Positions 1-26,485 of a DNA stretch of 46,169 nucleotides are shown in pieces; position 1 is the first letter of the stretch; each line of letters opens with the position of its first letter. Both the position numbers and the translations under genes were made by a program. The notes beneath the pieces were generated by a model. That model saw only the letters and a list, made by a program, of their open reading frames with translations, was not told the origin of the DNA and ran no database searches. The stretch covers positions 1 to 46,169 of the forward strand of contig PWJM01000181.1 of the NCBI GenBank assembly GCA_003560915.1. Direction: 5' to 3'. Source of the DNA: Syntrophomonadaceae bacterium (GTDB lineage: Bacteria > Bacillota > Dethiobacteria > SKNC01).

Positions 1-584
1 CAATCATTCAGCCGGTAGTATCCTACATGGAAAAAATGTGCAGCAGAAGACCGATGCTGGTCAATCTTTATGCCTCCTGCTACAAAGAGGTGGTGGCCAG
101 GGAAATAAACCTGGCCGGCATTTCCTGCCATGATACGGTTCTTAACATAGGGTGCGGCGCCATACCCTTTACCGCTATACACCTGGCACGGCTTACAGGG
201 GCCCGGGTGTGGGCGGTGGACCGGGACAGGATGGCTGTGGAGAAAGCCAGGTACAGTCTCAAGAAACTGGGTCTCTCAAAAAAAATAAAGCTTATAGAGG
301 GGGACGGGTCGGAGCAGATGCCCGCAGGTTTTACGGCAGCCATAGTAGCCCTGCAGGCGGAACCCAAGGAAACCATTTATGAAAATCTTTTTTCCCTGGG
401 CAGCCCCGGTGCCCGCTTTGTTTTTCGACAGCCCAGCCCCCCCTACCAGTCTTTTTATGACCGGCTGCCGGAAGATTACAAGCCGGTGGCACTGACAAAC
501 CAAAACATGAAAACCTTTGACAAATCTATACTATTTGTTAAAAGAAGGGGGAACACCAATAATGAAAAACTGCTTGACTCGTGA
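1..584 (+). CDS. Nicotianamine-synthase-like class I SAM-dependent methyltransferase (5' partial)
   Basis: Motif VLNIGCGAIPFTAIHLA...VDRDRMAVEKA plus ...PKETIYENL...FRQPS, resembling the NAS/CntL family. Frame is open upstream of the ATG at 27 (IIQPVVSYMEKM), so it probably starts outside the window. Confidence 0.6.
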   Translation, partial: IIQPVVSYMEKMCSRRPMLVNLYASCYKEVVAREINLAGISCHDTVLNIGCGAIPFTAIHLARLTGARVWAVDRDRMAVEKARYSLKKLGLSKKIKLIEGDGSEQMPAGFTAAIVALQAEPKETIYENLFSLGSPGARFVFRQPSPPYQSFYDRLPEDYKPVALTNQNMKTFDKSILFVKRRGNTNNEKLLDS

Positions 585-831
585 AAAATCTTCTCATATT
601 GTATTAACTATTGTCCTCTTATCCATGATGCTTATGCTATTAAGTGGAACCGCCTCGGCCCAGGAGGAGGGCGTTTACCTGGAACCTCTGGAGCATATTG
701 CCGAAGATATTGAGGAAATTCATGAAGACATGCATAAAGTGGCCTTTTCTCTGCGCCTGATTTCTTATTCTTCCATCGGTATTTTCCTGGTTTTGTTAGG
801 CCAGCTGTTTGTTTTAAGCAAAAAGTCTTAG
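562..831 (+). CDS. Small membrane protein: signal-peptide-like N-terminus, acidic/His helix, C-terminal TM
   Basis: ATG at 562 preceded by AGAAGGGGG. Overlaps the 3' end of the upstream methyltransferase. Translation MKNCLTREKSSHIVLTIVLLSMMLMLLSGTASAQEE...EHIAEDIEEIHEDMHK...TM. Confidence 0.6.
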   Translation: MKNCLTREKSSHIVLTIVLLSMMLMLLSGTASAQEEGVYLEPLEHIAEDIEEIHEDMHKVAFSLRLISYSSIGIFLVLLGQLFVLSKKS

Positions 832-890
832 AGCTTACTTAAAAGAGCAAAGTGCCAACCGGATTTATTTTTTAAAGGAGCTGTATACCT

Positions 891-1928
891 TTGGGGAAAA
901 AACCACTCTTATTGTTAGCAGGAATCATAATAATTACCGCCATGGCTGTATTATGGGGCGGGGAGGAAATTGCCAGGCTCTTACATGGTGTTTCCCCCCA
1001 TACCATTGCTGCTCTGTGCCTGCTGCAGCTTCTCACCCTGTCCCTTACCTCCTACCAGTGGTTTTTTGTCCTGAAGAAGCAATGTGAAATACCCTTTGGG
1101 AAAGTGTGGCTGATTTACCTGGCAGGAAACTTCGTAGAAAGTGTAACCCCATCAGTAAAAATGGGAGGGGAAGCCGCCAGAATCTTCCTCTTTCGACGGA
1201 GTACTTGCCTGGAGTACTCACAGCTGGCGGGTATGATGCTGGTTCAAAAGTACATCATCCTCCTCCCTTTTTTGCTGCTGTGTTCCCTGGTTTTGGCCGC
1301 ATCCTCCCTGCTGGTAGAACTTCCCAGCGCAGCTTATGCCGCCTTTATTTTTTTAGCCCTGCTGGTGGCACTGCTTTTTAAAGTCACCGGGGAAAACGGC
1401 AGCACCGGTGAAGTGAATGTTACCCCTAAAGCAAAAAAGGTAAGTGAAAAAACTTCCCAGGGACTGCTGGATACCCTTTCAAGCTTATATGATAAAGTTT
1501 CCGCAATAATAATTAGAACCAAGGCTTTTTTAAGCAAGGCCTCCTGGGCCTCCCGGTCGACGGTAACCGAAAAAGAAAAGCTCTTTCTCATGTTCATTTC
1601 CCTGCTGGTTTGGATACTGTATCCCATAAAAGTTCTTATAGTGGCTGATATGCTGGGCTTTTCTGTAGGTATCATCCCCCTGGCTTCCGCAGTTTTTACC
1701 GCATACATGGTCAGCATGGTACCACTGCTTCCCGGAGGGCTGGGAAGTTTTGAAGGCAGCATGGCGTTATTGTTAACTGGAATGGGGTTAACCCCTGCAG
1801 AAGGGCTGGCTGTAGCCCTGGTGTCCCGTTTAATTACCTACTGGTTTCCCCTGCTCCTTTCCGGAGGAGCTTCCGCATACCTGGTCTGGAATCAAAGAAT
1901 TCGGTTTACAGCCGTTGAAAATTCATAA
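891..1928 (+). CDS. Lysylphosphatidylglycerol synthase TM-region / flippase-like (UPF0104-type) membrane protein
   Basis: 345 aa polytopic protein, TTG start with AAAGGAG upstream. LPGGLGSFEGSMALLL motif typical of the LPG_synthase_TM family. Confidence 0.7.
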   Translation: MGKKPLLLLAGIIIITAMAVLWGGEEIARLLHGVSPHTIAALCLLQLLTLSLTSYQWFFVLKKQCEIPFGKVWLIYLAGNFVESVTPSVKMGGEAARIFLFRRSTCLEYSQLAGMMLVQKYIILLPFLLLCSLVLAASSLLVELPSAAYAAFIFLALLVALLFKVTGENGSTGEVNVTPKAKKVSEKTSQGLLDTLSSLYDKVSAIIIRTKAFLSKASWASRSTVTEKEKLFLMFISLLVWILYPIKVLIVADMLGFSVGIIPLASAVFTAYMVSMVPLLPGGLGSFEGSMALLLTGMGLTPAEGLAVALVSRLITYWFPLLLSGGASAYLVWNQRIRFTAVENS

Positions 1929-1942
1929 GCATAAAGAGATAT

Positions 1943-2629
1943 ATGGGGGTTAACATGATGGAAAGAATTGCAAAACTGGTAAATTCACATTACTTCCAAT
2001 TTCCCAAAGCTTTCATTTTAAAACTTTTTACTATAGCTGTAGGAATCTTTGAGCATCTGGGCAGCAGGTACTCATTTTTTGGAAAACTGTACAATACCTT
2101 TTTTTATCGAACCATGGTAACCACTGAAGCTGAAGCAGCTGGACTAAAGCCGGGTATGAAAGTACTCCACATCGGCAGCGGCCCCCTTCCCATGACCGCC
2201 ATATCCCTGGGCCGCGCGGGATGCAGCGTAACCGCTGTAGACAGCGATTCCAGGGCTGTTAAAGCCGGTGCCCGGCTGGTTAAAAATACTGGAATGGAAA
2301 AACAGGTCACGGTAAAACAGGCCCGGGGACAGGACATTGACTGTTCCGGGTATGATGCCGTCTGGGTATCCCTTCACGTCTTTCCCAAGAAAAAAGTGCT
2401 CCTTCAATCCTTTCAATCCCTGAAACATGGAGGGGCTTTGATATACCGAAACCCGGGGGGCTGGCTCAAACACCTGTATCCCCGGTTAGAGCCGGAGGAA
2501 GTGGATTCTTCCAGCTGCCACCGTCATCTTAAAATAAATCAGCCCTTAGGCAAAGCCACGATAATAATAAAAAAACATTCCCTGGAGGAAAACCGGAAAG
2601 GAGAGGTTGTTCATGAGAAATCAGCATAA
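1943..2629 (+). CDS. Nicotianamine-synthase-like class I SAM-dependent methyltransferase
   Basis: VLHIGSGPLPMTAISLGRAGCSVTAVDSDSRAVKAG matches the NAS-type IGSGPLP motif. PKKKVL and IYRNPGGWLKHLYPRL resemble NAS C-terminal motifs. Confidence 0.65.
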   Translation: MGVNMMERIAKLVNSHYFQFPKAFILKLFTIAVGIFEHLGSRYSFFGKLYNTFFYRTMVTTEAEAAGLKPGMKVLHIGSGPLPMTAISLGRAGCSVTAVDSDSRAVKAGARLVKNTGMEKQVTVKQARGQDIDCSGYDAVWVSLHVFPKKKVLLQSFQSLKHGGALIYRNPGGWLKHLYPRLEPEEVDSSSCHRHLKINQPLGKATIIIKKHSLEENRKGEVVHEKSA

Positions 2630-2912
2630 AGCGGCCGCAGCATCATTGAAAAGCAGCGGTGAAGTGCCCGGTAAAGTAACCCTGGAACAGCTAAAAAAAG
2701 GACAGGAGGGGATTATCTGCTTTGTTCCCGATCATCCGGTTCTGCCGCCCCTGGGCTTCAGGCCGGGAAAAAAAGTACGGTTGTGCTGCCTGGAAAGTTT
2801 TGGAGGTCCGGTCATTGCAGAGATAGAAAAAAGAAGCATTGCCCTGGGACGTTCCCTGGCCCGGGAGATTCAAGTTATCTGCGGTGAGGCTGAGGCCCAT
2901 GCACTGCAGTAA
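2613..2912 (+). CDS. feoA: FeoA-domain protein
   Basis: SH3-like FeoA pattern (LGFRPGKKVRLC...GGPVIAEIEKRSIALGRSLAREIQV). Lies directly upstream of FeoB. Confidence 0.75.
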   Translation: MRNQHKAAAASLKSSGEVPGKVTLEQLKKGQEGIICFVPDHPVLPPLGFRPGKKVRLCCLESFGGPVIAEIEKRSIALGRSLAREIQVICGEAEAHALQ

Positions 2913-4653
2913 GGATCAGCTGCAGCCGGAACATGCATCATTAGTAAAAATTTTGTTGATTGGACCTCCCAACGTAGGAAAGAGCGTGTTCTTCAACCGG
3001 CTGACCGGATTGGATGTAAATGTAGCCAACTATGTGGGAACTACCGTTGAATATACCCAGGGAAAGGCGCAGCTGGACAGCATGAACGCCCTGCTGATAG
3101 ATGTTCCGGGGACATACACCCTGGATGCCACCAATGAAGCGGAACAAGTGGCGGTAGAAATGCTGAACAGCGGTCCATCGGCGGTAATCGTCGTGGTGGA
3201 TGCCAATAACCTGGAAAGCAGCCTGTACCTGCTGCTGCAGCTGCTGGAACAGAGGCTCCCCACGGTGGTGGTTCTGAACCGTTATGACCTGGCCCGGGAT
3301 AAGGGATACGAGGTGGATACCTCGTTTTTATCTTTAAAGCTGGGGGTACCGGTAATTCCCACCATTGCCGTAGCCGGCGAGGGAATTCAGCGGTTGAAGC
3401 AGGAGGTGGAACAAGTTATTTCCCGGGGCCTCACCCATGAAATCAGCTGGAAAGAGGACAAGCCCTCCCGCTGGCAGAAAGCGGAGGAGTTAACCCAAAG
3501 GGCAAAAAACCCCCTGGAAAAAAAATCCCCCCTGCTTCAGCGGCAGAAATGGGGAGAATGGCTGGTAAAACCCTGGCCGGGACTGCCTATGGCAGTTCTT
3601 ATCCTGTCTTTAATTATGGCTGCAGTGATTGGTGTAGGGATGGGATTGAGACGTTTTGTCCTGCTTCCCCTTTTTCGAGGACTTATTATCCCACAAATAA
3701 TAATTGTGGTGGAAGCAGTAATTCCCTCCGGAATTTTTCAGAATATACTTATAGGAGAATACGGCTTCCTGGTAAAAGGACTGGAATGGCCCTTTGCTCT
3801 GGTACTACCCTATGTCATTTCCTTTTACAGCGTGTTGGGAATTCTGGAGGACAGCGGCTACCTTCCCCGACTGGGAGCGCTGCTGGATGGTTTATTGAAT
3901 AAAATCGGGCTGCACGGGTCCAGCGTGGTCCCTCTGCTCTTGGGGCTGGGATGCGGCATTCCCGGAATACTGGCCACCCGCAACCTTAACTCCCAAAAGG
4001 AGAGAATTGTAGTTTCCAGCTTAATTTGCTTATCAGTCCCCTGTATATCTCAGACCGGGGCCTTTGTGTCTCTACTGGCGGAACGTTCCATAGGAGTCGT
4101 TCTGGCAGTTTTCGCCGTTTCCGGCATAGCCCTGGCCTCCGCCGGCCTGGTCCTGGACCGGGTGGTCAAAGGACCCCGGTTCCATACCCTTATGGAAATA
4201 CCGGAACTTTTGGTGCCCAGAAAAGACATTCTTTTTAAAAAAGTTTGGGTACGCCTGAAGAGGTACATCACCGATGGCGCACTTCCTATGGTAGCAGCCG
4301 TAGGCCTGGCCGCTGTGATGTACGAAACAGGCCTGATGGCCGTCTTTGGTCAAGTTCTTTCTCCCCTGGTTAGCGGCTGGTTAAGGCTGCCTGAGGAAGC
4401 AGCAGTACCCCTGGTCCTGGGGATTCTACGCCGGGAAATGGCGGTTCTTCCCCTGATGGAGATGAACCTGGACACCCTGCAGCTTTTTACCGGGGCCGTA
4501 GTGGGGCTTTTTTACGTTCCCTGCATTGCCATGATTGCCATATTAGCCAGGGAGTTTAAACTTTCTCTGGCCTTTGGGATACTGGTTATGACCACCGCGG
4601 CTGCCTTCCTCATAGGGGGCCTTCTGGCCCGGCTGGGGGCCTTGGTAATGTAA
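2899..4653 (+). CDS. feoB: FeoB-type ferrous iron transporter (divergent)
   Basis: G-domain motifs GPPNVGKS, VDVPGTY, NRYD; Gate-like repeats; conserved LLGLGCGIPGILATR. Probable start ATG 2899 (ORF opens at 2839). Confidence 0.85.
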   Translation: MHCSKDQLQPEHASLVKILLIGPPNVGKSVFFNRLTGLDVNVANYVGTTVEYTQGKAQLDSMNALLIDVPGTYTLDATNEAEQVAVEMLNSGPSAVIVVVDANNLESSLYLLLQLLEQRLPTVVVLNRYDLARDKGYEVDTSFLSLKLGVPVIPTIAVAGEGIQRLKQEVEQVISRGLTHEISWKEDKPSRWQKAEELTQRAKNPLEKKSPLLQRQKWGEWLVKPWPGLPMAVLILSLIMAAVIGVGMGLRRFVLLPLFRGLIIPQIIIVVEAVIPSGIFQNILIGEYGFLVKGLEWPFALVLPYVISFYSVLGILEDSGYLPRLGALLDGLLNKIGLHGSSVVPLLLGLGCGIPGILATRNLNSQKERIVVSSLICLSVPCISQTGAFVSLLAERSIGVVLAVFAVSGIALASAGLVLDRVVKGPRFHTLMEIPELLVPRKDILFKKVWVRLKRYITDGALPMVAAVGLAAVMYETGLMAVFGQVLSPLVSGWLRLPEEAAVPLVLGILRREMAVLPLMEMNLDTLQLFTGAVVGLFYVPCIAMIAILAREFKLSLAFGILVMTTAAAFLIGGLLARLGALVM

Positions 4654-4666
4654 TATGTTTACAAAG

Positions 4667-5551
4667 TTACAGCCTGACCAGGATCTTCCCTAACCGGCTG
4701 ACCATCTGGTGGGATAGTTTTCCTTCCTGGGCCTGACTTTCCAGAAATGTTTTAACTTTATCCTTGGGATAAGGTTCTTCTTTCCCAAATATCTGAAGCT
4801 CATTTAAAAAGAACGGCACTGCTTCCTGGACAGTTGTTTCCACCTGTCTTCTTTCTTCCCAAACCCGAAAATCCAGTTGGTAACCCCTGGAATAAAGAAG
4901 ATTTAAAATAAAAATAACATGGGCAGGCCATGTAGGGATTTCCTCTCCATAAACATCCCACCAGAGCTCCTCCATGATACTGCTCTGTCTCCTGCCGGCA
5001 AACTGGCTGATAAAACAGTATTTTTTTGCACATAACAGAGCTTTATGTATCGTTTCCCAGTTATTAATTCCAGGGGTCATGGAGGCAAAAACCAGGTCAA
5101 ACTCTCCTTTCAATCCCCGGGCGTACAGATCCACCTCTTCCCAGGTATCCTGAATCACTTTAATGTTTGTAATTTTACCTTTTTCTATTTGTTCTTCTAA
5201 AAAAGCCACCATGTTTTCTGCCGGTTCCAGCGCCACCACCTGCCCCACCTTTTCTGCAAAGGCCAGGGAAAAAGGACCAGGGCCGGCACCAATATCCAAG
5301 ACTTTCGCCCCTTCCAGCACCACTCCCTGGGCTGCCAGCCACTGAATTACTGTATTAACACGATTTATTCCTTTTTCACTCATTACGTTATCGGTAAAAT
5401 TATCAGCCCTCCGGTTCCAAAAATCCACGGTATCCTTTAATGTCTTATCTTTCTTTTTAAAGATTGATTCTTTGTTCGCCCGTTCCCAGGCTTTTTCCCA
5501 AAACTCCGGACTTTTCAATTGTTCTGGATCCGGCGTATGCATTGATATCAT
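4667..5551 (-). CDS. Class I SAM-dependent methyltransferase
   Basis: VLDIGAGPGPFSLAFAEKVGQVVALEPAENMV: classical motif I. 294 aa. Confidence 0.75.
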   Translation of the reverse strand: MISMHTPDPEQLKSPEFWEKAWERANKESIFKKKDKTLKDTVDFWNRRADNFTDNVMSEKGINRVNTVIQWLAAQGVVLEGAKVLDIGAGPGPFSLAFAEKVGQVVALEPAENMVAFLEEQIEKGKITNIKVIQDTWEEVDLYARGLKGEFDLVFASMTPGINNWETIHKALLCAKKYCFISQFAGRRQSSIMEELWWDVYGEEIPTWPAHVIFILNLLYSRGYQLDFRVWEERRQVETTVQEAVPFFLNELQIFGKEEPYPKDKVKTFLESQAQEGKLSHQMVSRLGKILVRL

Positions 5552-5846: not shown

Positions 5847-6629
5847 CTATTTATTATCTTCTTCCAAACGCTTTAACCTTTTTTCCACTTCTTTGGCTTC
5901 TGCTTCTAAGTTTTTAAGGTAATCTTTCAGGCGTTCTATTTTTTCCTGCTTACTGTAAAATAACCGCTGAAAACTGAAAGGGACCGGCGTTTCGCATCCG
6001 CAGCCGCAGGTGCAGACATCCGTACACCCGCAGCCGCAAGTACAAACATCCGTACACCCGCAGCCGCAAGTAGAAACTTCCATGCCATGCCTGCGGGCAT
6101 GTCCTTTATGATGATGACCGTACATATGCTTTCCTCCTTTTTTTTGAATTCCATCCTTTTGATAAACAGCGTAATCCACCTCTTCAACCCGGCAAACTTT
6201 TTCTATAGGTTCTGATAAAATTTCTGCTATTACACTTTTCATTTTCGCAGCTAATAATTCTTCTTCCCCTGTTTTCTTATGAGCCATTATTTCTTCCCGC
6301 CGGGCTTTCCAGTCCTCTTTAAGTGTAACCCGCACGGCTTTATCTTTATGAGGAAGAGTGAAAATGTATCCCGGTCCAATGTTTTGAATTAAAAAGTTCC
6401 TTTTCCCCAAGGTACATCCTGTTATAAATTGAACCGCATCGACTGAACAACTTACGTTTTCTACAACTGCCACCATCTCTTCATTGGAATCCCCCCCGCA
6501 TCCGCAGCCGCACCCGTTTTGCAGGGCATTTACAGCAGCTTCTGCAATACGATAGCCTGCTGCCAGCCCAATACACTCGTGCCCATGAAAATCAACTGTC
6601 TGCTCCCATAAGGTTTTTTCCATACACAT
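5847..6629 (-). CDS. FmdE-family protein fused to a Cys/His-rich coiled-coil C-terminal region
   Basis: DFHGHECIGLAAGYRIAEAA...AVQFITGCTLGKRNFLIQNIGPGYIFTL fits the FmdE family. C-terminal MYGHHHKGHARRHG...(CTCGCGCTDV)n...coiled coil. Confidence 0.8.
   Translation of the reverse strand: MCMEKTLWEQTVDFHGHECIGLAAGYRIAEAAVNALQNGCGCGCGGDSNEEMVAVVENVSCSVDAVQFITGCTLGKRNFLIQNIGPGYIFTLPHKDKAVRVTLKEDWKARREEIMAHKKTGEEELLAAKMKSVIAEILSEPIEKVCRVEEVDYAVYQKDGIQKKGGKHMYGHHHKGHARRHGMEVSTCGCGCTDVCTCGCGCTDVCTCGCGCETPVPFSFQRLFYSKQEKIERLKDYLKNLEAEAKEVEKRLKRLEEDNK
5995..6076 (-). repeat. In-frame 30-bp tandem repeat encoding CTCGCGCTDV
   Basis: Unit cagccgcaagtacaaacatccgtacacccg about 2.5x on the + strand (6001-6030, 6031-6060, partial 6061-6076). 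Confidence 0.85.
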
Positions 6630-10577: not shown

Positions 10578-12344
10578 TTAATGCTGTGTTTTATGCTTAT
10601 GAACATGTTCATGAGTATGAGGATGGTGATGGCTTTTATGAACGTGCTGGTGCTCTCCGAAAGCCGCATCTATAAGCTCTTTGGTATGACAGCAGCAGGG
10701 ATCGGTAAACAACCGCCGGGAGGAGCCGGTTTCCACAATTTCTCCCTGCTTCATTACCATCACCCGGTCCGCTACCTTACGGGCCAGTTCCAGGTCGTGA
10801 GTAATAAACAGCATGGCAAACCCTTTAGAATTCTGCAGCCCCTTCAGCAGGCGGAGCAGGTTGGCCTGGGTAGAGGGATCCAGCATGGAGGTAATTTCAT
10901 CCGCCAGCAGCAGGGCCGGCTTCATGACCAGAGCCCGGGCAATGGCTACCCGCTGTCTCTGACCTCCGCTCAGTTCAAAGCAAAAACGCTTTAAAAAGTC
11001 TGTTCCCCAGGGGAGCTGAACCTGTTCCAGGGCCTCCCTAACCCTGCTGCTCCTCTCCTGTGAAGTCCCGATTTTATTTATATCCAGGGGTTCCCGCAGG
11101 ACCTGTTCCACAGTCAAGCGGTGGCTGGTAGAAGAAAAAGGGTCCTGCATAACGATCTGAATTCCATTCTCCTGCCGGGTCACCCCATTGTAGAACTTTT
11201 CCCCACGGAAGGTAATATCTCCGGCAGTAGGCTTCATAAGCCTTCCCAACATCTGGGCCACGGTAGACTTTCCGGACCCGGTCTCCCCCACCAGGGCAGC
11301 CACTTCTCCCTCCTTAATATAGAGGTCCACTCCGTTAACCGCCTGCAGCACCCGCTTCTTTAAACGGTACTCCTTCTTAAGTCCTGAGGCCTCCAAAATA
11401 GTCACTATTCCCCCCCGGTGACAAGCTACCCGCCTTTCACAACAGACCTGCTGCAGGGCAGGAACCCCCTCCCTACAGCTCTCCAGGGCCTGGGAGCACC
11501 GGCTGTGGAAGGAACAGCCCGCTTCCTGTCCCGTGGGAGGCTCACCGGGTATCCCCCACAAGTCTTTATATGCAAAGTAGTGGGGAGAGGAATTAATGAG
11601 CCCCCGGGAATAGGGATGAAAAGGGTCCTCCAGAAGCTCCTCCGTCAATCCCTCCTCCACCACGCGACCCCCATACAGTGCCAGCAGCCGGGAAGTAAGC
11701 CGGGAAATACAGGATAAATCGTGGGAAATCACCACCAGGGTAAAGCCGTACTCCTGCTGCAGCCTTCCCAACAGCTCAATCATCTCTTTTCGGGAAACAG
11801 GGTCCAGGGAAGTGGTGGGCTCATCCACCAGCAGCAGTTCCGGCTTACAGGAAAGAGCCATGGCAATCAAAACCCGCTGTCGCATGCCTCCGGAAAGCTG
11901 GTGAGGAAAAGCCTCTTTCCACTGGGGGTCCAGCCCTACCAGCTGAAACAGTTCCTCTACCCGGGCCTCCAGCTCTTTCCCCTTCAGATAAAGATGCTTT
12001 TTTAACGGCTCCCCCACCTGTTCCCCAATATTCAACACTGGATTCAGGACCTCCAGTGAATTCTGAAAAACCATGGCAATATGCTTCCAACGAAGCGCCT
12101 TTTTTCCCTTATCACTGAAGGATAGAAACTCGGTCCCCCGGAAATACGCATTTCCTTCCACCCGGTCTTTCCCCCCAATCAAGCCCATTAAAGCCAGGCC
12201 CAGGGTAGTTTTACCGCTGCCGGATTCCCCGATAATCCCCAGGGTATCCCCTTCCTTCAGAGAAAAAGAAATCTCCTGTAATGCCCGTACCGGGGCTCCC
12301 TCCGCCTGGTAGGTAACGCTTAAATTCCGAACCTCTAATACCAT
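10578..12344 (-). CDS. Fused double ABC ATPase (OppD-OppF/NikD-NikE type) with His-rich C-terminus
   Basis: Two Walker A (GESGSGKTT, GETGSGKST) and two LSGG motifs; oligopeptide/nickel C-terminal Cys motif (CSFHSRCSQALESC); tail HQHVHKSHHHPHTHEHVHKHKTQH. Confidence 0.9.
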   Translation of the reverse strand: MVLEVRNLSVTYQAEGAPVRALQEISFSLKEGDTLGIIGESGSGKTTLGLALMGLIGGKDRVEGNAYFRGTEFLSFSDKGKKALRWKHIAMVFQNSLEVLNPVLNIGEQVGEPLKKHLYLKGKELEARVEELFQLVGLDPQWKEAFPHQLSGGMRQRVLIAMALSCKPELLLVDEPTTSLDPVSRKEMIELLGRLQQEYGFTLVVISHDLSCISRLTSRLLALYGGRVVEEGLTEELLEDPFHPYSRGLINSSPHYFAYKDLWGIPGEPPTGQEAGCSFHSRCSQALESCREGVPALQQVCCERRVACHRGGIVTILEASGLKKEYRLKKRVLQAVNGVDLYIKEGEVAALVGETGSGKSTVAQMLGRLMKPTAGDITFRGEKFYNGVTRQENGIQIVMQDPFSSTSHRLTVEQVLREPLDINKIGTSQERSSRVREALEQVQLPWGTDFLKRFCFELSGGQRQRVAIARALVMKPALLLADEITSMLDPSTQANLLRLLKGLQNSKGFAMLFITHDLELARKVADRVMVMKQGEIVETGSSRRLFTDPCCCHTKELIDAAFGEHQHVHKSHHHPHTHEHVHKHKTQH

Positions 12345-12398
12345 AACTTTACCTCCCTGCCGCTATTAAATCTCTCCCGTATAAACCTGCGACTACCC

Positions 12399-13304
12399 TT
12401 AATTTCTTTTTACCACCCTGGGGTCAGCGATTCTTTCCAGATCCCTGCCAAATAGAGCCAGGGAGGTAATAAGAAGGGTTAAGAAAGCCCAGGGATACAT
12501 CAACCACCACTTCCAGAAAGGGGTAAAGTAAATCCCACTGAAATTCAGGGCATGATTGATAATTAACCCCCAGCTTTTAGAGGTGGGATCCCCCAACCCC
12601 AGGAAAGAAAGGGCTGCTTCGGTAACGATGGCCATCCCCGAAAGTCGAATCATGCTGACCGCCAGGATGGGGAAAAGTTCCGGCAGGAAATGTTTAAAAA
12701 TAATGTACAGGTCTCCTGCTCCGTAACTTTTGGCCATTTTTATATATCCCTGTTCCTTTAAGGACAGAACCTGGGCCCGGATAATCCTTGCCGGATGAGA
12801 CCAGGAAAAAAGAGCCAGAACAATAATAATATTTCTTAAGCTGGAACCGAAGAAAGCAGCCAGAATAACCATAATGGGAAGGTCCGGAAGCACAATCATG
12901 ATATCAATCAGGCGCATAATAACTCGCTCTATCCATCCCCCCCGGTAACCGGCCCAAATACCAATGATACCGCCTCCCAATCCCGCCAGAAGAGCGGTGC
13001 CTAATCCCACCAGAAGACTAACCCTTGCCCCATAACAAATCTGAGACCAAAGATCTACTCCCATTTCATCAGTTCCCATAAGGTGATCTCCCCCCGGGGG
13101 CACCAGCGCAGGCCCCGAAGACACATTGTGAGGAAGCCAGGTGAAGAAAGGGGCCCCCACAGCCAGAATTATCATGGCCAGGATTACGGTTAAACCAAAT
13201 TTCCCGAAGATGGACAGGCTTTTCCAAAACGCTATTCCTTTTTTGTATAGTTCCCCTGGTACTCTTAAAAGCAGCCGGGGATTCATAACCTGGCTCTGGT
13301 ACAT
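12399..13304 (-). CDS. ABC transporter permease, DppC/NikC type
   Basis: GTDEMGVDLWSQICYGARVSLLVGLGTALLAGLGGGIIGIWAGYRGG and AALSFLGLGDPTSKSWG motifs. Confidence 0.9.
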   Translation of the reverse strand: MYQSQVMNPRLLLRVPGELYKKGIAFWKSLSIFGKFGLTVILAMIILAVGAPFFTWLPHNVSSGPALVPPGGDHLMGTDEMGVDLWSQICYGARVSLLVGLGTALLAGLGGGIIGIWAGYRGGWIERVIMRLIDIMIVLPDLPIMVILAAFFGSSLRNIIIVLALFSWSHPARIIRAQVLSLKEQGYIKMAKSYGAGDLYIIFKHFLPELFPILAVSMIRLSGMAIVTEAALSFLGLGDPTSKSWGLIINHALNFSGIYFTPFWKWWLMYPWAFLTLLITSLALFGRDLERIADPRVVKRN

Positions 13305-13437
13305 ATTAGGCTCCCTTAATATTATTTAAAATAGCAGCAGCTTGGCCCTATTCGTTATGGTGTGATACCCTTAATACAAATTTATAGTTTTAGTTAATAC
13401 TTTTTTGAGCAGCTGCTTGTGACTCTCATAGAATCAC

Positions 13438-14430
13438 TTAAGCCGTTTCCTGTCCCCGGGTTCGGGGGTCCAGTACCCGGTACAGCAGATCCGCCAGCAG
13501 GTTAGCCCCCAGAACCCCAAAAGCTAAAACCAGGAAAATTCCCTGCAGCAGAGGGTAATCTCTCACAAAAACTGCCTGCCTCATCAGCAGGCCCAACCCC
13601 GGGTAAGCAAAAACATTTTCCACCAGAACTGCGCCGCCTACCATGGCACCCATCTGCAGAGCCACCCGGGTTACCAGGGGCAAAAGGGCATTTCGTAACG
13701 CATGGTAATAACGAATCCTTTTCTCAGTGAGGCCTTTGGCCCGTGCCGTGCGGATGTAGTCCTTCCCCATAACAGTAGTAAAGGTATTCCTGACCAGCAG
13801 GTATATTCCACCTACCCTTGCCAGAGAAAGAGTAATCACCGGCAGTGCAGCGTGATGAAGAACATTCTTGACATGCTCCCAACCGGTGTAGTTGGCAAAG
13901 TGTCTCATGGCTCCGGAAAGGGGGAAAAGGCCCATCCCCGCTGCAAAAATTATTAATAGAACAATCCCCAGCAGAAATGCAGGTATTTCGGAAAAAACTA
14001 TCATAAGTAAATACAGGCTTTTATCCTTCCAGGACTCCCGGTGGAAAGCAGAAAAACTCCCCAGCACAGTGCCCAGCAGCAGGCTTAACAGGGTGGCTCC
14101 GGCAACAATCATCAGGGTCCAGGGAAGCCTTCTTAAGATGATGGAGGACACCTGGTCCTTGTAATAGTAACTTACCCCCATATCTCCCTGAATCAACCCC
14201 GTAAGATACCGGGCATACTGTTCAGGCAGAGGCCTGTCCAATCCATAGTACTCAATGAAATACTGCCTCTGTTCTGCAGTAAACGCCCAGACCTCTTCAC
14301 CCCCCTCCCCGGATAGGTGAAGAAAAGGGTCTCCGGGCATCATCCGGGGCAGCATAAAATTCAGGGTTATAATCACCATAAAGGTAATCGCATATTCCAT
14401 TATCCTGAAAACCAATCCTGTATTTTTCAC
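13438..14430 (-). CDS. ABC transporter permease, DppB/NikB type
   Basis: PGDPF...YGLDRPLPEQYARYLTGLIQGDMGVSYYY; DYIRTARAKGLTEKRI EAA loop. GTG start at 14430 likely (track ORF opens at 14535). Confidence 0.9.
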   Translation of the reverse strand: MKNTGLVFRIMEYAITFMVIITLNFMLPRMMPGDPFLHLSGEGGEEVWAFTAEQRQYFIEYYGLDRPLPEQYARYLTGLIQGDMGVSYYYKDQVSSIILRRLPWTLMIVAGATLLSLLLGTVLGSFSAFHRESWKDKSLYLLMIVFSEIPAFLLGIVLLIIFAAGMGLFPLSGAMRHFANYTGWEHVKNVLHHAALPVITLSLARVGGIYLLVRNTFTTVMGKDYIRTARAKGLTEKRIRYYHALRNALLPLVTRVALQMGAMVGGAVLVENVFAYPGLGLLMRQAVFVRDYPLLQGIFLVLAFGVLGANLLADLLYRVLDPRTRGQETA

Positions 14431-14761
14431 ATCTATACCCCTTGCTGGCTGCTTCCATATAATTGGACGGCGCAAACTTCTACGCTGAATTGACAATGTA
14501 ATAATGCCAAAACATTTATCCCCGGTTTCTGGCATAAACGAGAGGAGGCCCTGGGGCTCTATGATTGTGCCGGCAGCCTGATGACGGTAAGAAATCTTTA
14601 AACCATGAATATGCTGCCTTCCCTTGTTTGTATAAACCAGGAAAGGCAGCAGCCCTTCTTACAGCATACAGTAAAATTTAATAATTTTCAATAAACCATT
14701 CATAACTGCAATACCAACTTCCCGATGGAGGAACTTCTTTTCGGTTTAACACAGGTGATAT

Positions 14762-16396
14762 TTACCTTTCTAAGAAGGAAAATTTGGCATGGGTCATCAT
14801 CGCATGGTCAAACATGAAGGTCCAGCCATCATACTCCTCAGGCCTGAAAACAAAATAATAGTAATTGTTATACAAGGGAATCTCCGGAACATCCTCCGCC
14901 AGAACTTCCTGAAGCTTAAATATTACCTGCTTCCGTTTTGCCCGGTCTGTTTCCCGGAGCTGTTCCAGGCAGAGACGGTCAACTTCAGCATTCACATACC
15001 CCTGGTTATTGCCCAGTAGGCCTGTGGCGGAACCGCCGGAACCTTCTTCCAGCTGGCTGTAGTAACGCAACCTTAAATAGTCAGCATCTAATCCCCAGGC
15101 ACCCATGGATAGTATGGCCATTTCATAGTTCCCTTCATTGGCCCGGGCATCCCTGGACTTACTGTCTACTGATGTTACCTTTAAATCAATATTCACTTTG
15201 GCCAGTTGTTCCTTAAGCAGTTCACCTACACGGACTTCAGGGCCCTCTGACACTAGAAGCTCAAAAGACAGGCTGCCATCTACTCCTGCTTCTTTAAGCA
15301 GTTCTAATGCTTTCTCAGGATTATGCTGATATTTGGGCTGGTTTGAATTATACCATTGATGGTCTATTGGAAGAATTCCTGGACTTCCAGGCTTTGCAGC
15401 CCCTCTCATCACTTTTTGTATTATTTCCTCTTTATCAATAGCGTGATTAAAAGCCTGCCGAAACTCCTTTTTCTTAAACAGTTCATTTTTATTCATATTA
15501 AAACTAATCATGGTTCCTGCCAATGCAGGGCTTTCTACCACCAGAAATTCATCATTATTTTCAAAGCGGGAAAGAAGATCCGGGGTAATCCTGGTAATGG
15601 TAATGTCTCCATTTTCAAAGGCTAAAATCTCATCGCTGACCGGCACCATTTCTATCACATCAACCCGTGGTTTGGGCCCCCAGTAGTCTTCAAAGGCCTC
15701 GTAACGGTAAGTGCCGTGTTCCTTGCTGTAGTCTGTTAAAATAAAGGGTCCGCAGCCAATTAATGCGCCCTCATCGGTAAATTCGTACGGGTCATCAATA
15801 TCTTTCCATATATGTTCGGGAATAATCCTCATCATTCCTGCTTCACAGTAAAAAGTTGCATCGGGTCCAGAGGTAATGATTTTCACCTGGTAGTCGCTAA
15901 CTGCCTCAATACTCTGAATATAACCGGCTTTAGTAATCACCTCACCGATAAATACCGGGGGGTGCTCCAAATAATATTCAAAGGAAAAAACTACGTCTTT
16001 TGCGGTCATTTCCTCTCCATCATGCCATTTTACCCCTTCTCTCAGGTAAATATCGTGGGTTTTCCCATCTTCACTGATATCCCACTTTTCTGCCAGCCAG
16101 AGAGTACACTGTTCCTCGTCCGGTTCCAAAAGGGAATCAAAAACATACTTCATAACGGTACCCCTCATGCGGGGATAATGGCCAAAGGGTGAAGGAAAAC
16201 CGGCATCTCCCCCTTCTAGTTTAACAATTACAGGATCTCTGGGTGTTTCCACCTCACCGGGATCTGACACTGCTGCGTCCTCATCACCGGTACCCACATC
16301 TCCGTTTCCGTTACAACCTGCCGTAAAAGAAAACACCAGCAAAAGAATCCATAACCATAATACTGCCTTACTTAAAAAACACGACTTGACTGACAA
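14762..16396 (-). CDS. Extracellular solute-binding protein family 5 (peptide/nickel), lipoprotein
   Basis: Lipobox-like SFTAGCNGN; LWLAEKWDISEDGKTHDIYLREGVKWHDGEEMTAKDVVFSFEYY: SBP_bac_5. Confidence 0.9.
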   Translation of the reverse strand: MSVKSCFLSKAVLWLWILLLVFSFTAGCNGNGDVGTGDEDAAVSDPGEVETPRDPVIVKLEGGDAGFPSPFGHYPRMRGTVMKYVFDSLLEPDEEQCTLWLAEKWDISEDGKTHDIYLREGVKWHDGEEMTAKDVVFSFEYYLEHPPVFIGEVITKAGYIQSIEAVSDYQVKIITSGPDATFYCEAGMMRIIPEHIWKDIDDPYEFTDEGALIGCGPFILTDYSKEHGTYRYEAFEDYWGPKPRVDVIEMVPVSDEILAFENGDITITRITPDLLSRFENNDEFLVVESPALAGTMISFNMNKNELFKKKEFRQAFNHAIDKEEIIQKVMRGAAKPGSPGILPIDHQWYNSNQPKYQHNPEKALELLKEAGVDGSLSFELLVSEGPEVRVGELLKEQLAKVNIDLKVTSVDSKSRDARANEGNYEMAILSMGAWGLDADYLRLRYYSQLEEGSGGSATGLLGNNQGYVNAEVDRLCLEQLRETDRAKRKQVIFKLQEVLAEDVPEIPLYNNYYYFVFRPEEYDGWTFMFDHAMMTHAKFSFLER

Positions 16397-17379: not shown

Positions 17380-18471
17380 ATGATTGGAAGATATGCCGGC
17401 GCAGTAAAATACAAAGAACTGCTGCAGAAAAAAGAGTTTTTTATGGTGTCCATGGGAATTCTATTGGTTACCCTTTCTTTCTTAACAGGAAACAAAAATG
17501 TTTCGTTCCCCCTGTCTGACCTGCTGGCCTTGGGTGCTGTTCTTCTTTTAGGCGGGCCTATCATTGTTGAAGCTGTGCGGGGACTCATCCAAAAGGAGGT
17601 AAATGTGGTTGAACTGGTCAGCCTGGCCATCATAGCTTCGGTGATAGCTGGAGAATACCAGGCCGCGGCTATCGTGGCTACGATTATGGTTCTTGGCTCC
17701 CTGGTGGAACAGTTCACCTCCCAAAAAGCCCGTTCGGCCATACTTTCCCTGATGGAACTAAAGCCGGAAAAAGCCAGCCTGCTCCGCCTCGGAACAAAAC
17801 ATTCAGAAAAAGCCCTTTCGGCAAAAGAAAATGGTTCCCTTCTGGGATTCATTCATATTCAGGAAGAAATTCGCCCCGGGGTTCATGAAGTAATTGGCTC
17901 GCTGGAGAAAACAGGGATTTCAGAAATACACCTGCTGTCCGGTGATCGCCAGCAGGCTGTCCAAAAGGTGGCGGAGAAAACCGGAATCCCCCATTGTTCC
18001 GGTGAAATGCTGCCGGAGGATAAACTACGTTTTCTAAAGAAGATTCAAAAGAAAAATAATAGCGTGGCCATGGTGGGAGATGGAGTAAATGACGCCCCTT
18101 CCCTGGTTACCGCCAATGTGGGAATTGCCATGGGAGTTATGGGCACCGACACGGCCATTGAATCTGCAGACATTGCCCTTATGGCCGATGACCTGGAAAG
18201 GCTGACTTTTTTATTCCGCCTGGGAAAACAAACGGTAAAAACGATTCACTCCAACATCTTTTTTGCCCTGTTCTTCAATCTGGCAGCCTTGATTGCTTCA
18301 GGGAGCGGTATGTTAACCCCGGTAACCGGCGCCATTACCCACAATATTGGTTCCATCTTTGTGGTGGTAAATTCAGCACTGCTTCTTAAGTTTTCGGGAG
18401 AAAAACCCGAATTAACCGGTCAAAAAATCCACGAACAAATTTCCGGGCAAATCTCCGCCGACAAATATTAA
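17380..18471 (+). CDS. Internally deleted P1B-type ATPase (lacks TGE, CPx and DKTGT regions)
   Basis: Two-TM region + ARSAILSLMELKPEKASLL fused directly to GSLLGFIHIQEEIRPG...LLSGDRQQAVQKVAEKTGI...MVGDGVNDAPSL...; single intact ORF with RBS. Confidence 0.8.
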   Translation: MIGRYAGAVKYKELLQKKEFFMVSMGILLVTLSFLTGNKNVSFPLSDLLALGAVLLLGGPIIVEAVRGLIQKEVNVVELVSLAIIASVIAGEYQAAAIVATIMVLGSLVEQFTSQKARSAILSLMELKPEKASLLRLGTKHSEKALSAKENGSLLGFIHIQEEIRPGVHEVIGSLEKTGISEIHLLSGDRQQAVQKVAEKTGIPHCSGEMLPEDKLRFLKKIQKKNNSVAMVGDGVNDAPSLVTANVGIAMGVMGTDTAIESADIALMADDLERLTFLFRLGKQTVKTIHSNIFFALFFNLAALIASGSGMLTPVTGAITHNIGSIFVVVNSALLLKFSGEKPELTGQKIHEQISGQISADKY

Positions 18472-19669: not shown

Positions 19670-20311
19670 TTATATCCCCTTGATTGATGGATTGTTTGCA
19701 GCATTTACTGCAGGTATTTTCAGCATACCCGGCTTGGCATTATACAAAAACTTAACGGCATAACCAGTAATTAATCCCTCCACTGCAATTAAAGGTAGAT
19801 GACCCGCGGCCAAAAGGTTAATCACAGAGAAAAATCCCTCCGCAAACCTCTGATCACTGAACAATAAAAATAAAATCAACAGTACCAGTGTACCTGTGAT
19901 GGCCAGGCCTCCCGCCAGGGCTCCCCCCATAAAGACAGACCGTTTCTGAATCCCTAGAAATAATTTATGAACCAAAAGTGCTGGTAAAGCCAACATAAGC
20001 GTATTGGCACCCAGAGTAGAAAGGCCCCCGTGTTGAAACAATATGGCTTGAAGCAGCAGACCCACAAAGAACGCCAGCGGAGCCCGCCTTCCCAGGATAA
20101 TGCCTAAAAGGCCTCCCAGTATAGGGTGTACAGTTGAAGGACCTACAGGGATACTGATTAGGGATATTGCAAAAAACCCCCCGGTCATCAGGCTTATCAT
20201 AGGAATTTCTTCCTCCTGGACACCCTTTATTGAATAAGCTACCAGAGCTCCTGCCCCTACATATGCCGCTGCGGCCACAGGCAAGCTTAAAACACCGTCG
20301 GCTAAGTGCAC
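19670..20311 (-). CDS. cbiM: CbiM/NikM-type Co/Ni ECF transporter S component
   Basis: N-term MHLADGVLSLPV (MHIxDG variant with invariant N-terminal His); VGPSTVHPILGGLLGIILGRRAPLAFFVGLLLQAILFQHGGLSTLGANTL. Confidence 0.9.
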   Translation of the reverse strand: MHLADGVLSLPVAAAAYVGAGALVAYSIKGVQEEEIPMISLMTGGFFAISLISIPVGPSTVHPILGGLLGIILGRRAPLAFFVGLLLQAILFQHGGLSTLGANTLMLALPALLVHKLFLGIQKRSVFMGGALAGGLAITGTLVLLILFLLFSDQRFAEGFFSVINLLAAGHLPLIAVEGLITGYAVKFLYNAKPGMLKIPAVNAANNPSIKGI

Positions 20312-20390
20312 TTCATTCCCTCCCTTGCGTACTATTAAAACAGTATAGGCAACCTTGCCCTGTGAAAAGCGGCACTATCCGAAGAATATC

Positions 20391-20423
20391 AATAAGACAG
20401 CAGAACCGTCCCCTTGTCTTATT
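20391..20423. repeat. REP-like palindromic element AATAAGACAGCAGAACCGTCCCCTTGTCTTATT
   Basis: Imperfect palindrome; core AGAACCGTCCC shared with 17.2 and 31.7 kb copies. Confidence 0.65.
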
Positions 20424-20455
20424 CTCTTATAAGGCTCCTTGGGCCTAGTTTCGGT

Positions 20456-20998
20456 CTAGTGATAATGCCCGCAATCTTCGTACTCAACAGGGTTTTTAGC
20501 TTCTACCTCATTCCCACTGCTGTCTAACATTTTAAGGTCGAACTCATGGGGAAAATGCTCCAAAAATACAACGTATTCCCCTGCTTCCGTTATTTCAAAG
20601 GTAAATGTTGTTTCATCTGAATTTAATATAAGAGAGTAACCATAGTCCGGTACCACGGTAAAAATTCCTCCGGGTTGGATCTCTTCCATATCCTCTTCCA
20701 TAATATGGTGGGCAAGGTGGGCAATATCATCCATGTGTCCTTCATTTAAAAGAAAAGCGATATCACAGGAGGGGTCACCACTTTCCCCAAACTCCAGGGT
20801 GTAAATGCCTGCCTCAAAGGAATATTCACCGCTCCATTCATAGGGAAGATCTCCATGGTCATGGTCATGGGAATGATGATCATGATCTGCGGGTTCATCA
20901 TTCTGGGATCGATCTGGAGCTGCCGTATCCTGTCCCCCGCATCCGGCAATAATTAGTAAGCTTATCAGTATGATTGGTAAAATCCAGTATTTTTTCAA
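20456..20998 (-). CDS. His-rich metal-binding lipoprotein
   Basis: TTG start at 20998 after AAGGAGAGTGACAGG; lipobox LLIIAGCGG; DHDHHSHDHDHGD cluster; C-term DCGHYH. Confidence 0.7.
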   Translation of the reverse strand: MKKYWILPIILISLLIIAGCGGQDTAAPDRSQNDEPADHDHHSHDHDHGDLPYEWSGEYSFEAGIYTLEFGESGDPSCDIAFLLNEGHMDDIAHLAHHIMEEDMEEIQPGGIFTVVPDYGYSLILNSDETTFTFEITEAGEYVVFLEHFPHEFDLKMLDSSGNEVEAKNPVEYEDCGHYH

Positions 20999-21192
20999 TC
21001 CTGTCACTCTCCTTGTAATATTCAATTTGGTCCTGGTTTTATAATGTGACCTTTTTCCCCTTCTCAATCTTTCAAATACTCTTTTTATTAATAAAAGAAT
21101 ATTTTATTATAGTTATTCTTAATAATTTCTGCAAGCCTGTTATGTTTAAACTATAAACCACCTCCAGTAAATCTATTGGCTGTCAAAACAAA

Positions 21193-21224
21193 AACCTTTA
21201 TATCCCATCAAGGGTATAAAGGTT
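21193..21224 (-). terminator. Intrinsic terminator downstream of cobalamin riboswitch 1
   Basis: AACCTTTATA/TATAAAGGTT 10-bp stem followed by TTTTGTTTTG on the minus strand. Confidence 0.75.
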
Positions 21225-21279
21225 CTGAAGACAAAATACTTGTGAAATCTTAACCCCATACACCGTGGGTAGTAAAATT

Positions 21280-21470
21280 AAGAAAACAAGCAGGTCTCCT
21301 GGCTTAGGTTCATCGCTCTTTTACGCCTTCCCGGCAGGAGTTTTCCATTAATGGAATCTCTATTTGCCAGTGGCTGCTCTGCTTGTAAAAGGCTCACCAT
21401 CACAGTGACGGGATCGCGCTGGATTCTCACCAGCTTCCCTTTTATTCTTTTAAGAAAGAACTTGCTTTCT
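21280..21470 (-). promoter_or_regulatory. Cobalamin riboswitch 1
   Basis: Minus strand GGGAAGCTGGTGAGAATCCAGCGCGATCCCGTCACTGTGA...GCCAGGAGACCTGC: canonical B12-element core; P1-like ends pair. Confidence 0.92.
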
Positions 21471-21706
21471 ATTTATTTAGTTTTTAAAGGCTGAATCCGA
21501 TTAATTTAATATTACATTACAAAATATACAATTGCAAGTAATTTGCATTAAAAAATGTTACAATTTATATGTTTTATATCTCCTGTTTCTATTTTATTAC
21601 CTTTTTATTAAAACATTCCATTAAAGGATTAACATATTTCTTTAAGAGTTAAGACATTCCTTTTATCTTTACCTTTAAGGGAAAACCCGTCAGCACCCTT
21701 AACTAA

Positions 21707-22525
21707 TTAATTTTTGTTTTTTCCAACCGGCATACAGGACCTGATTATTCCCGCCGCTTCTTCCGGGCTGCGGGGACTAAATCCGGTGCCTTCAAAAATA
21801 TCCGCCAGCATGGGGACCTCTAAATATCCCTGAATCATCAATTCCCTGTCCGTCAGCAGCTCCACCTCTCCTGCAGCCAGTATTTCCCCTTCTTTCATAA
21901 TAATTACCTGGTCGGCCCAGGTATAAGCCAGATTTACATCATGAGTACTGAGGATAAGGGTTGCTCCCTTTATACTTAAGTCATTCAGTATATCCACCAT
22001 TTGACAGGTAGAGTAAGGATCCAGGCCCGAAAAAGGCTCGTCACAAACCAGCATTTCCGGCTCCATGGCCAGCAGTCCGGCAATAGCCACTTTCTTTTTT
22101 TGCCCCAGGCTTAAATTATACGGGGGTTTGTCCTTCAGCCCTTCAATGTTTACCATTTGTATGGCCTTGAAAGTTCTGGATAATACTTCTTCCTCTCCCA
22201 ATTTTAAATTCCTGGGTCCAAAGGCAATATCGTTAAATACCGTAGTGGAAAACAGCTGGTTATCGGGATTATCAAAGAGAAGTCCTACTTGCTGCCTGAT
22301 TTTTGATATATTTTTCTTTAGTAGTGGAAACCCCATTACCGTAACCTGCCCCTGCTGGGGCAGAAAAATCCCATTCAAGTGATAAATTAAAGTAGTTTTT
22401 CCGCTTCCATTGGAACCCAGTATAGCTGTTTTTTTGTTTCTTTCTATTTTCAAGTTGATATCATTTAAGGCTTCGGTACCATCGGCATAATTATATTTAA
22501 GACCCGTAATATCTACAGCATTCAT
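21707..22525 (-). CDS. cbiO: CbiO/EcfA-type ABC ATPase (cobalt)
   Basis: LGSNGSGKTTLIYHLNGIFLPQQG...NPDNQLFSTTVFNDIAFGP: ECF ATPase signatures. Confidence 0.9.
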   Translation of the reverse strand: MNAVDITGLKYNYADGTEALNDINLKIERNKKTAILGSNGSGKTTLIYHLNGIFLPQQGQVTVMGFPLLKKNISKIRQQVGLLFDNPDNQLFSTTVFNDIAFGPRNLKLGEEEVLSRTFKAIQMVNIEGLKDKPPYNLSLGQKKKVAIAGLLAMEPEMLVCDEPFSGLDPYSTCQMVDILNDLSIKGATLILSTHDVNLAYTWADQVIIMKEGEILAAGEVELLTDRELMIQGYLEVPMLADIFEGTGFSPRSPEEAAGIIRSCMPVGKNKN

Positions 22526-23269
22526 TTACAGCACCACCTGTTCTATAACGATTAAAAAGATTACTGAAAATACTGTAACCACCATTTTAAAAATATCCAT
22601 AGAGGTAATGGGAGAAGGGATGCTTACAGGCATTTTCCCCTGAAAACAACGGGAGGACATGGCTCTGTAAACATGTTCAGACCGATCCACCGATTTAATA
22701 AAAACTCCTCCTGAAAGTTCACCATACACCTTTAACGCATCCAGTTTTAGCCCACCAGAAAAAAGACGGGAAGCCAGGGCCCTCTGAATACTCTTAACCT
22801 CCTGCACAAACAAAAAAGTATAGCGATAAGCCAAAAACAAAACGGTAATAATAACATAAGGCACTTTAAGATGATACAGGCCCTCTAAAAATTCCTCCAG
22901 GGGCTGAGTAAGCAGCATGACTATCATGGCTGTCATGGAAGTTAACGCTTTCAGGGATATAAGAGCAGCAAAGGAATACCGGTCAGGTGAAGGGGGAAAC
23001 CCTCCCCCCAGTATAATGGGTAAAGACATCAGAGTTAAAAAAGGAACCAACAGCAGCAGTTTTTTCAGCAGAAAAAAGAAAGTGAAACCCATAAGTCCAG
23101 CAGAAATCAAGGTAAAGGCTAGAGCCGTCAAAACCAGTACAGGAGTATTTAAACTGACCACACCAAAGACCAGCAGTACTGCAGCAATGGTCTTGGCCCG
23201 GGAATCCCAGTTACGACCCCAGGAACGTACCTGTATGGTTTGATTCTCTTTCAAATTGTATCGGCCCAA
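22526..23269 (-). CDS. cbiQ: CbiQ/EcfT-type transmembrane protein
   Basis: EcfT/CbiQ pattern (IQRALASRLFSGG...SGGVFIKSVDRSEHVYRAMSSRCF). TTG start at 23269 with AAGGAGCG upstream; the track's 23305 start overlaps a terminator hairpin. Confidence 0.85.
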   Translation of the reverse strand: MGRYNLKENQTIQVRSWGRNWDSRAKTIAAVLLVFGVVSLNTPVLVLTALAFTLISAGLMGFTFFFLLKKLLLLVPFLTLMSLPIILGGGFPPSPDRYSFAALISLKALTSMTAMIVMLLTQPLEEFLEGLYHLKVPYVIITVLFLAYRYTFLFVQEVKSIQRALASRLFSGGLKLDALKVYGELSGGVFIKSVDRSEHVYRAMSSRCFQGKMPVSIPSPITSMDIFKMVVTVFSVIFLIVIEQVVL

Positions 23270-23290
23270 TATTATTCGCTCCTTACAGAA

Positions 23291-23324
23291 AAAAACCTTC
23301 ATCATTACAAGGATAAAGGTTTTT
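23291..23324 (-). terminator. Intrinsic terminator hairpin of cobalamin riboswitch 2
   Basis: AAAAACCTT/AAGGTTTTT 9-bp stem ending in a T run on the minus strand. Confidence 0.65.
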
Positions 23325-26171: not shown

Positions 26172-26485
26172 ATATTTCCTCTCCCTTCCAATATGTAAAA
26201 CTTGTTTTCGTATTATAATAATACACGGTGGCAAAATAATCGTCAATAATTTTATCGCTATTTAAAATAAATTTTTACTATATGAAATACCTTTGAAAAT
26301 TACTATCTTGTTCGGTAAAAAAATAGCATAGTTAACCGATTGAATTAAATAAAATTTCGGCCACTATAATTTATGATGGCCGGTTTGATTGTTACCTTGT
26401 CTATACTGGAAAGTTGAAACTTTTCTTTTAACTGAAGCCTCCATGCATAGGAATAGGAGAGCGTATTGAATTTTTAACATAAAAA

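Follow-up and report, generated by a model that had tools for sequence, protein, structure and literature searches.

What would two relatives of nicotianamine synthase (NAS) contribute to an operon for ferrous iron import? The question is raised by the first six genes of contig PWJM01000181.1 from a Syntrophomonadaceae bacterium (assembly GCA_003560915.1), a 46,169-nucleotide stretch referred to here in its entirety as the window. Bases 1–4653 encode, in order, a first NAS-like protein (NAS1), a small membrane protein, a flippase-like protein of the LPG_synthase_TM family, a second NAS-like protein (NAS2), FeoA and FeoB. An initial annotation, made from the DNA alone, described all six as lying on the + strand, tightly packed and partly overlapping, and the open reading frame (ORF) coordinates and profile matches agree. 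Bacteria import Fe(II) mainly through FeoB. We find that these genes represent a conserved, Fur-linked unit in which short NAS-like enzymes (mini-NAS), the flippase-like protein and often a phosphatidylserine synthase (PssA) are tied to a clade of FeoB of their own. The best explanation we can offer, in which our confidence is evenly balanced, is an iron-regulated Fe(II)-acquisition unit in which mini-NAS would act on a lipid acceptor and a nicotianamine-like ligand would be displayed to FeoB.

NAS1 (1..584, + strand, reading from base 3) and NAS2 (1943..2629, + strand, likely start ATG 1955 behind GGGGG) are short NAS-like proteins, the former of aminocarboxypropyl-transferase type. The window starts at contig base 1, inside the operon, with the promoter and about the first two codons of NAS1 missing; this estimate is based on the orthologue in G002, a genome of the window's own genus, which begins MQIIQPVV. 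The NAS-type motif recognised in the initial annotation is present in both proteins (VLNIGCGAIPFTAIHL and VLHIGSGPLPMTAISL), and their best sequence matches in the PDB are CntL and MtNAS (E about 1e-5). Fold models were built on shallow alignments (7 and 11 sequences; predicted local distance difference test scores of 79 and 87), with the N-terminal helices among their least confident parts. The top match of the NAS1 model was MtNAS 3fpe (E 2.6e-11, TM 0.75), and the top four PDB matches of the NAS2 model were all MtNAS entries (E 5e-13).

In an alignment with canonical NAS/CntL relatives, Glu10 and Tyr27 of NAS1 (numbered from base 3) and Glu37 and Tyr55 of NAS2 share columns with the catalytic Glu and Tyr, and are the putative catalytic pair; the MtNAS counterparts are E81 and Y107 (Y107 of 3fpe in the alignment). 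A second, invariant Glu is positioned seven residues past the Tyr (E34 in NAS1, E62 in NAS2), as in MtNAS Y107/E114. Among complete mini-NAS proteins the Glu is retained in 63/63 and 16/16 and the Tyr in 64/64 and 17/17. In AtNAS1, E77 and Y106 are essential and correspond to residues thought critical in MtNAS (PMC10248798). Judged by sequence and modelled fold, NAS1 and NAS2 are thus true relatives of NAS that form a separate clade, and the assignment to the NAS-type enzyme family in the initial annotation is upheld.

The same comparisons set the two proteins apart from the characterised enzymes. With MtNAS (3fpe/3fpj) and plant NAS they share the Rossmann core, the GxGxxPxT motif, the Glu and Tyr and the Glu at Tyr+7, but of the N-terminal helical bundle, which shuts the reaction chamber in canonical NAS, most is absent, and this places them outside the canonical group. 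A median of 52 residues precedes the motif in NAS1 and 78 in NAS2, compared with 132 in canonical relatives; the Glu-Tyr linker is 17–18 rather than 26–29 residues; and the PF03059 match begins at profile position 120 of 276. NAS2 scores above the PF03059 cut-off (43.7 against 27.1 bits) and NAS1 below it (18.3 bits), so by this profile NAS1 is not classed as a member. A 90-protein tree splits the short forms from canonical NAS/CntL with support of 100/99 and recovers NAS2 as a single clade (100/100); NAS1 and NAS2 are two clades of one family, consistent with their earlier description as paralogous. CntL of the staphylopine- and pseudopaline-type zincophores has the aminobutyrate-transferase fold in common with mini-NAS, but CntL-type relatives lack the conserved Tyr and lie in cnt-type loci, and the scores of the two window proteins (35.9 and 29.4 bits) are far below the 350-bit cut-off of the CntL equivalog NF033601. 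Neither the window operon nor the related operons inspected yielded a recognisable CntM, CntK or importer (neighbours that matched no profile were not individually identified); the earlier remark that no CntM or CntK was recognised holds for these operons too. CntL/opine membership was rejected. By sequence, mini-NAS are neither canonical NAS nor CntL, and of the earlier NAS/CntL identification the family membership stands and the identity with either canonical enzyme does not.

A further candidate is that the proteins are ordinary S-adenosylmethionine (SAM)-dependent methyltransferases that merely resemble NAS and serve, for example, in phospholipid N-methylation or FeoB modification. Generic methyltransferase Pfam families do score, NAS1 falls under the Pfam NAS cut-off, and a nearby PssA would suit phospholipid methylation. 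We regard this as improbable: the GxGxxPxT motif and the Glu/Tyr/Glu set show little or no variation and align with canonical NAS, MtNAS is the top fold match of both proteins, and genomes with an operonic PssA lack phosphatidylserine decarboxylase (Psd; see below) and would have no phosphatidylethanolamine (PE) by that route to methylate. Membership in the generic methyltransferases was rejected because the NAS-specific residues are invariant. Homology argues strongly for aminocarboxypropyl transfer, and mini-NAS probably carry out this chemistry.

Is the association with FeoAB a property of this contig or of the family? Mini-NAS occur in 24/98 genomes of the window's class (Dethiobacteria). 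Mini-NAS-type matches were found in 47/399 genomes of the phylum Bacillota, a few being canonical NAS/CntL, and in 11/297 genomes of the class of Desulfonatronospira, one of which, G659, has longer NAS-like genes instead. Across two phyla, 69 mini-NAS loci had readable surroundings, and these contain FeoB in 60, the flippase-like gene in 51 and PssA in 21, counts to be read in the light of the relatedness of the sampled genomes and of draft assemblies that can miss genes. Several Desulfovibrionia genomes have the order Fur-NAS1-LPG-NAS2-FeoA-FeoB, as in the window. The flippase-like protein and NAS2 are fused in frame in G002 (571-residue ORF, L025:6850-8565), and NAS2 and FeoA share one open frame in G003. 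Canonical long NAS/CntL relatives (L022-L024, L149, L151-L154) do not adjoin FeoB. G659 represents a different two-synthase arrangement, with tandem NAS-like genes at L192 3980-4861 and 4858-5673 (Desulfovibrionia; 53–54 bits, frames of about 270–300 residues) near a DUF4198 gene and with no FeoB.

The FeoB proteins encoded with mini-NAS also form a group of their own. Within the window's class they score at least 815 bits against their clade profile, compared with at most 507 bits for other FeoB, and the clade is present in 22/24 mini-NAS genomes and 2/74 of the others (p 1.6e-17 for genome-level tracking). The window FeoB scores 965 bits; a second FeoB in the same genome (G000:C157) scores 389 bits, is by this measure of the ordinary type and differs at Gate positions as well (such as RRD for RRE), and another FeoB is also present in several other carriers. 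FeoA and FeoB domains are thus found as in known FeoAB systems, but the window-type FeoB differs in forming a clade that co-occurs with mini-NAS and has characteristic Gate residues (RRE of Gate-2 in place of RRD; VPC..Q[TS].A[FL]). In G061, G062 and G080 the clade FeoB is encoded away from the mini-NAS genes, which shows that adjacency is not the sole basis of the tie. The link of mini-NAS to FeoAB is real and old.

Regulation points the same way. Upstream regions were scored for the Fur-like box core TGATAAT-N-ATTATCA (14 positions), with expectations from dinucleotide shuffles. Boxes matching at least 12/14 positions precede 26/91 operons against 0.4 expected; Fur boxes are expected ahead of FeoAB operons anyway. 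Among FeoB-less mini-NAS loci, boxes of 11/14 or better precede 8/12, where 0.7 would be expected. In nine readable loci the operon adjoins a gene of the Fur family, and the best matches at the G002 operon are only 10/14 and 9/14. As judged from these predicted Fur-like sites, the gene cluster is iron-regulated.

Incidental clustering of metal-related genes would be in keeping with the Nik-type ABC and CbiMQO-type genes further along the window, but we consider it barely credible: the same set occurs in two phyla and with two different fusions, the FeoB clade tracks mini-NAS as above, and Fur-like boxes accompany the FeoB-less copies. Chance linkage was rejected, since dozens of genomes in both phyla carry these genes together. 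The operon is almost certainly tied functionally to Fe(II) uptake. The initial annotation had proposed a two-synthase pathway tied to Fe(II) uptake; the tie holds, and its expected co-occurrence with feoAB was borne out by the genomic-context survey, but two synthases are not the general rule, as most Bacillota carriers have one mini-NAS type together with a phosphatidylserine synthase. In the literature searched, neither a pairing of NAS-like genes with feoB nor a phospholipid carrying an aminocarboxypropyl group is described, and feoB goes unmentioned in a zincophore survey that took CntM as its starting point (PMC7438024).

On what, then, would the enzymes act? In the 21 loci with PssA, a CDP-alcohol phosphatidyltransferase of the phosphatidylserine-synthase family, its gene usually lies directly after that of the flippase-like protein. 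Scores against TIGR00473 (cut-off 107 bits) were 127.7, 107.2 and 137.0 bits, with a fourth protein, from L117, at only 88.7; all 21 have the CDP-OH-P motif, which carries a single substitution in L031. Psd is encoded in 0/20 genomes with an operonic PssA versus 21/23 genomes with PssA elsewhere (p 2.6e-10 by genome, p 2e-4 by family), and the phosphatidylserine made by the operonic enzyme is therefore not expected to be on the way to PE. Among Bacillota genomes, PssA accompanies NAS1 alone in 41/43 and NAS1 with NAS2 in 1/15 (p 1.7e-10 by genome, p 1e-4 by family); it was looked for in the window's genome and not found. Strict mutual exclusion of NAS2 and PssA is weakened by G354 and G482, and G004 and G086 are exceptions to the reverse rule, that a genome with NAS1 alone has PssA; we take both as tendencies only.

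Alternatively, the lipid enzymes would supply phosphatidylserine itself as an anionic lipid needed by the FeoB clade, with the NAS proteins acting separately as intracellular makers of metal ligands or as sensors. PssA without Psd does leave phosphatidylserine as an end product, and FeoB sits in the membrane. Window-type genomes, however, keep both NAS genes and the flippase-like gene without any PssA, and the NAS genes occur in the operon more consistently than PssA does; we hold this proposal to be a shade less probable still than ordinary methyltransferases.

NAS-type enzymes alkylate the α-amino group of an amino acid, and phosphatidylserine bears such a group on a lipid. The flippase-like gene, to which the initial annotation gave no weight, together with PssA speaks for a lipid and against a secreted metallophore of the classical kind, and a lipid acceptor is favoured, with moderate confidence, because of the operonic PssA without Psd and the PssA/NAS2 pattern; the near absence of the N-terminal part that closes the canonical chamber is consistent with it. 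NAS1 and NAS2 would move the 3-amino-3-carboxypropyl group of SAM onto the acceptor, most likely a membrane lipid's amino-acid head group, with release of methylthioadenosine. Most Bacillota carriers would use phosphatidylserine for this, supplied by a PssA often encoded within the operon. In the PssA-less lineage of the window, NAS2 is predicted to place an aminocarboxypropyl group on the lipid first, in a BtaA-like reaction giving a homoserine lipid, and NAS1 would then extend the head group made by NAS2. The flippase-like protein would carry the product across to the outer leaflet; there the amines and carboxylates of its nicotianamine-like head group might capture Fe(II) and pass the ion to the dedicated FeoB clade; for the flipping and the hand-over our confidence is weak to moderate.

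Known systems offer partial precedents. A flippase fused to a synthase is the architecture of MprF, the lysyl-phosphatidylglycerol synthase/flippase, and the window operon resembles it in having an LPG_synthase_TM domain beside a head-group-transfer-type enzyme (fused to it in G002). The enzyme differs in being NAS-like and SAM-dependent rather than an aminoacyl-tRNA-dependent GNAT-type protein, and only the PF03706 domain is shared. BtaA, the betaine/homoserine-lipid synthase, would provide a precedent for SAM-derived 3-amino-3-carboxypropyl transfer to a lipid; it is not known to be a NAS homologue, and metal binding is not a known role of it.

Several observations weigh against a lipid-based system. 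No transmembrane segment is predicted in NAS1 or NAS2; conserved Glu and Tyr residues do not prove aminocarboxypropyl transfer; and some mini-NAS loci have no flippase-like gene. The PssA pattern is partly lineage-bound, since the genomes of family f3 all lack PssA, with mini-NAS or not; the NAS1-only genomes G004 and G086 lack PssA, and G354 has it together with NAS1 and NAS2. The Desulfonatronospira genome G482, the one Desulfovibrionia carrier tested for PssA, combines NAS1, NAS2, PssA and Psd, so that NAS2 and PssA are not strictly exclusive; Psd is also present in the three other Desulfovibrionia carriers tested.

The principal competitor is a soluble metallophore. Here a free amino acid would be turned by mini-NAS into a small molecule of nicotianamine or xNA type, with PssA a mere neighbour. 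The product would leave through the flippase-like protein, or stay in the cell to buffer or chaperone Fe(II) where the ion emerges from FeoB. Free amino acids (Glu, His, SAM-derived units) are the substrates of every NAS/CntL enzyme characterised so far, and the close link of mini-NAS to Fe(II) uptake would fit as well. An opine dehydrogenase, racemase, major facilitator superfamily exporter and ABC importer were not recognised in mini-NAS operons, unlike in the cnt-type loci L151, L153 and L154, and a soluble product leaves unexplained the operonic PssA without Psd, the PssA/NAS2 pattern, the flippase fusion and the loss of the N-terminal bundle. We consider a soluble product unlikely, if clearly less so than the methyltransferase and phosphatidylserine proposals, and put the chance that the product is instead lipid-borne at about one in two. 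That anaerobic bacteria make a membrane-anchored metallophore lipid (phosphatidylserine or a diacylglyceryl lipid, its head group extended by NAS and flipped outward) that a dedicated FeoB clade uses for Fe(II) capture is a more tentative proposal, which we hold at somewhat less than an even chance. This widespread, uncharacterised cluster suggests a metal-binding molecule, possibly anchored to a membrane lipid, that feeds iron into some anaerobic bacteria. A lipid-linked chelator, if true, would be both a new metallophore class and a new lipid; with a soluble product, the NAS subfamily would still be new, and so would the way in which metal ligands are coupled to FeoB. The carrier lineages include soda-lake anaerobes, living where iron is scarcely soluble.

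The remaining genes of the operon are all on the + strand. The small membrane protein (562..831; ORF 517-831, likely start 562) overlaps NAS1 and has two predicted hydrophobic segments with an acidic/His-rich stretch, EPLEHIAEDIEEIHEDMH, between them; Pfam and NCBIfam profile searches with it gave no match, and homologues adjoin the G002 operon and occur in L095 and L098. The polytopic LPG_synthase_TM/flippase-like protein (891..1928) matches PF03706 with 139.4 bits and TIGR00374 with 112 bits. A sequence search with it against the PDB gave no match, and the MprF profile NF033480 covers only its transmembrane region with 46.6 bits against a cut-off of 600, which places it outside that family. 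FeoA (about 2613-2912) matches PF04023 with 43.9 bits. FeoB of the mini-NAS-associated clade (about 2863-4653, start approximate) overlaps feoA and contains both a G domain and Gate (FeoB_N PF02421, 163.5 bits; Gate PF07670, 102.2 bits); against TIGR00437 it is marginal and divergent, at 315.0 bits for a cut-off of 315.65.

Other metal-related genes lie near several mini-NAS loci. CbiM/CbiQ/CbiO, YibE/F and DUF4198 genes are found at L029 2366-7322, L030 4590-12410 and L020 2775-3524, a hint that the handling of nickel or cobalt may be involved as well. In the window, an FmdE-family protein (5847-6629, − strand), whose linker is His-rich, MYGHHHKGHARRH, and whose Cys tail repeats CTCGCGCTDV two to three times, forms a broader nickel/cobalt neighbourhood with a nearby Nik-type ABC transporter (10578-16396) and genes of the CbiM/CbiQ/CbiO type (19670-23305). 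UppP (undecaprenyl-diphosphatase) homologues occur near mini-NAS/Feo loci at L030 596-1456, L032 10325-11152, L096 8111-8917 and L098 4215-5042. A separate class I methyltransferase family (window 4667-5551, − strand; L025:3704-4609 and 17626-18000; L017:1294-2181), whose nearest NCBIfam model is CpaM at 40 bits, under its cut-off, recurs beside the mini-NAS/Feo locus and, in G002, beside a Nik/Opp-type ABC transporter. Further along the window, a 363-residue P-type-ATPase-like ORF (17380-18471, + strand) keeps the GDGVNDAP hinge but lacks the DKTG phosphorylation motif; its length, well below the norm for such proteins, gives the impression of an internal deletion. Two adjacent, closely similar FMN/glutamate-synthase-domain-like proteins (24588-26246 and 26615-28204, − strand) represent a tandem duplication.

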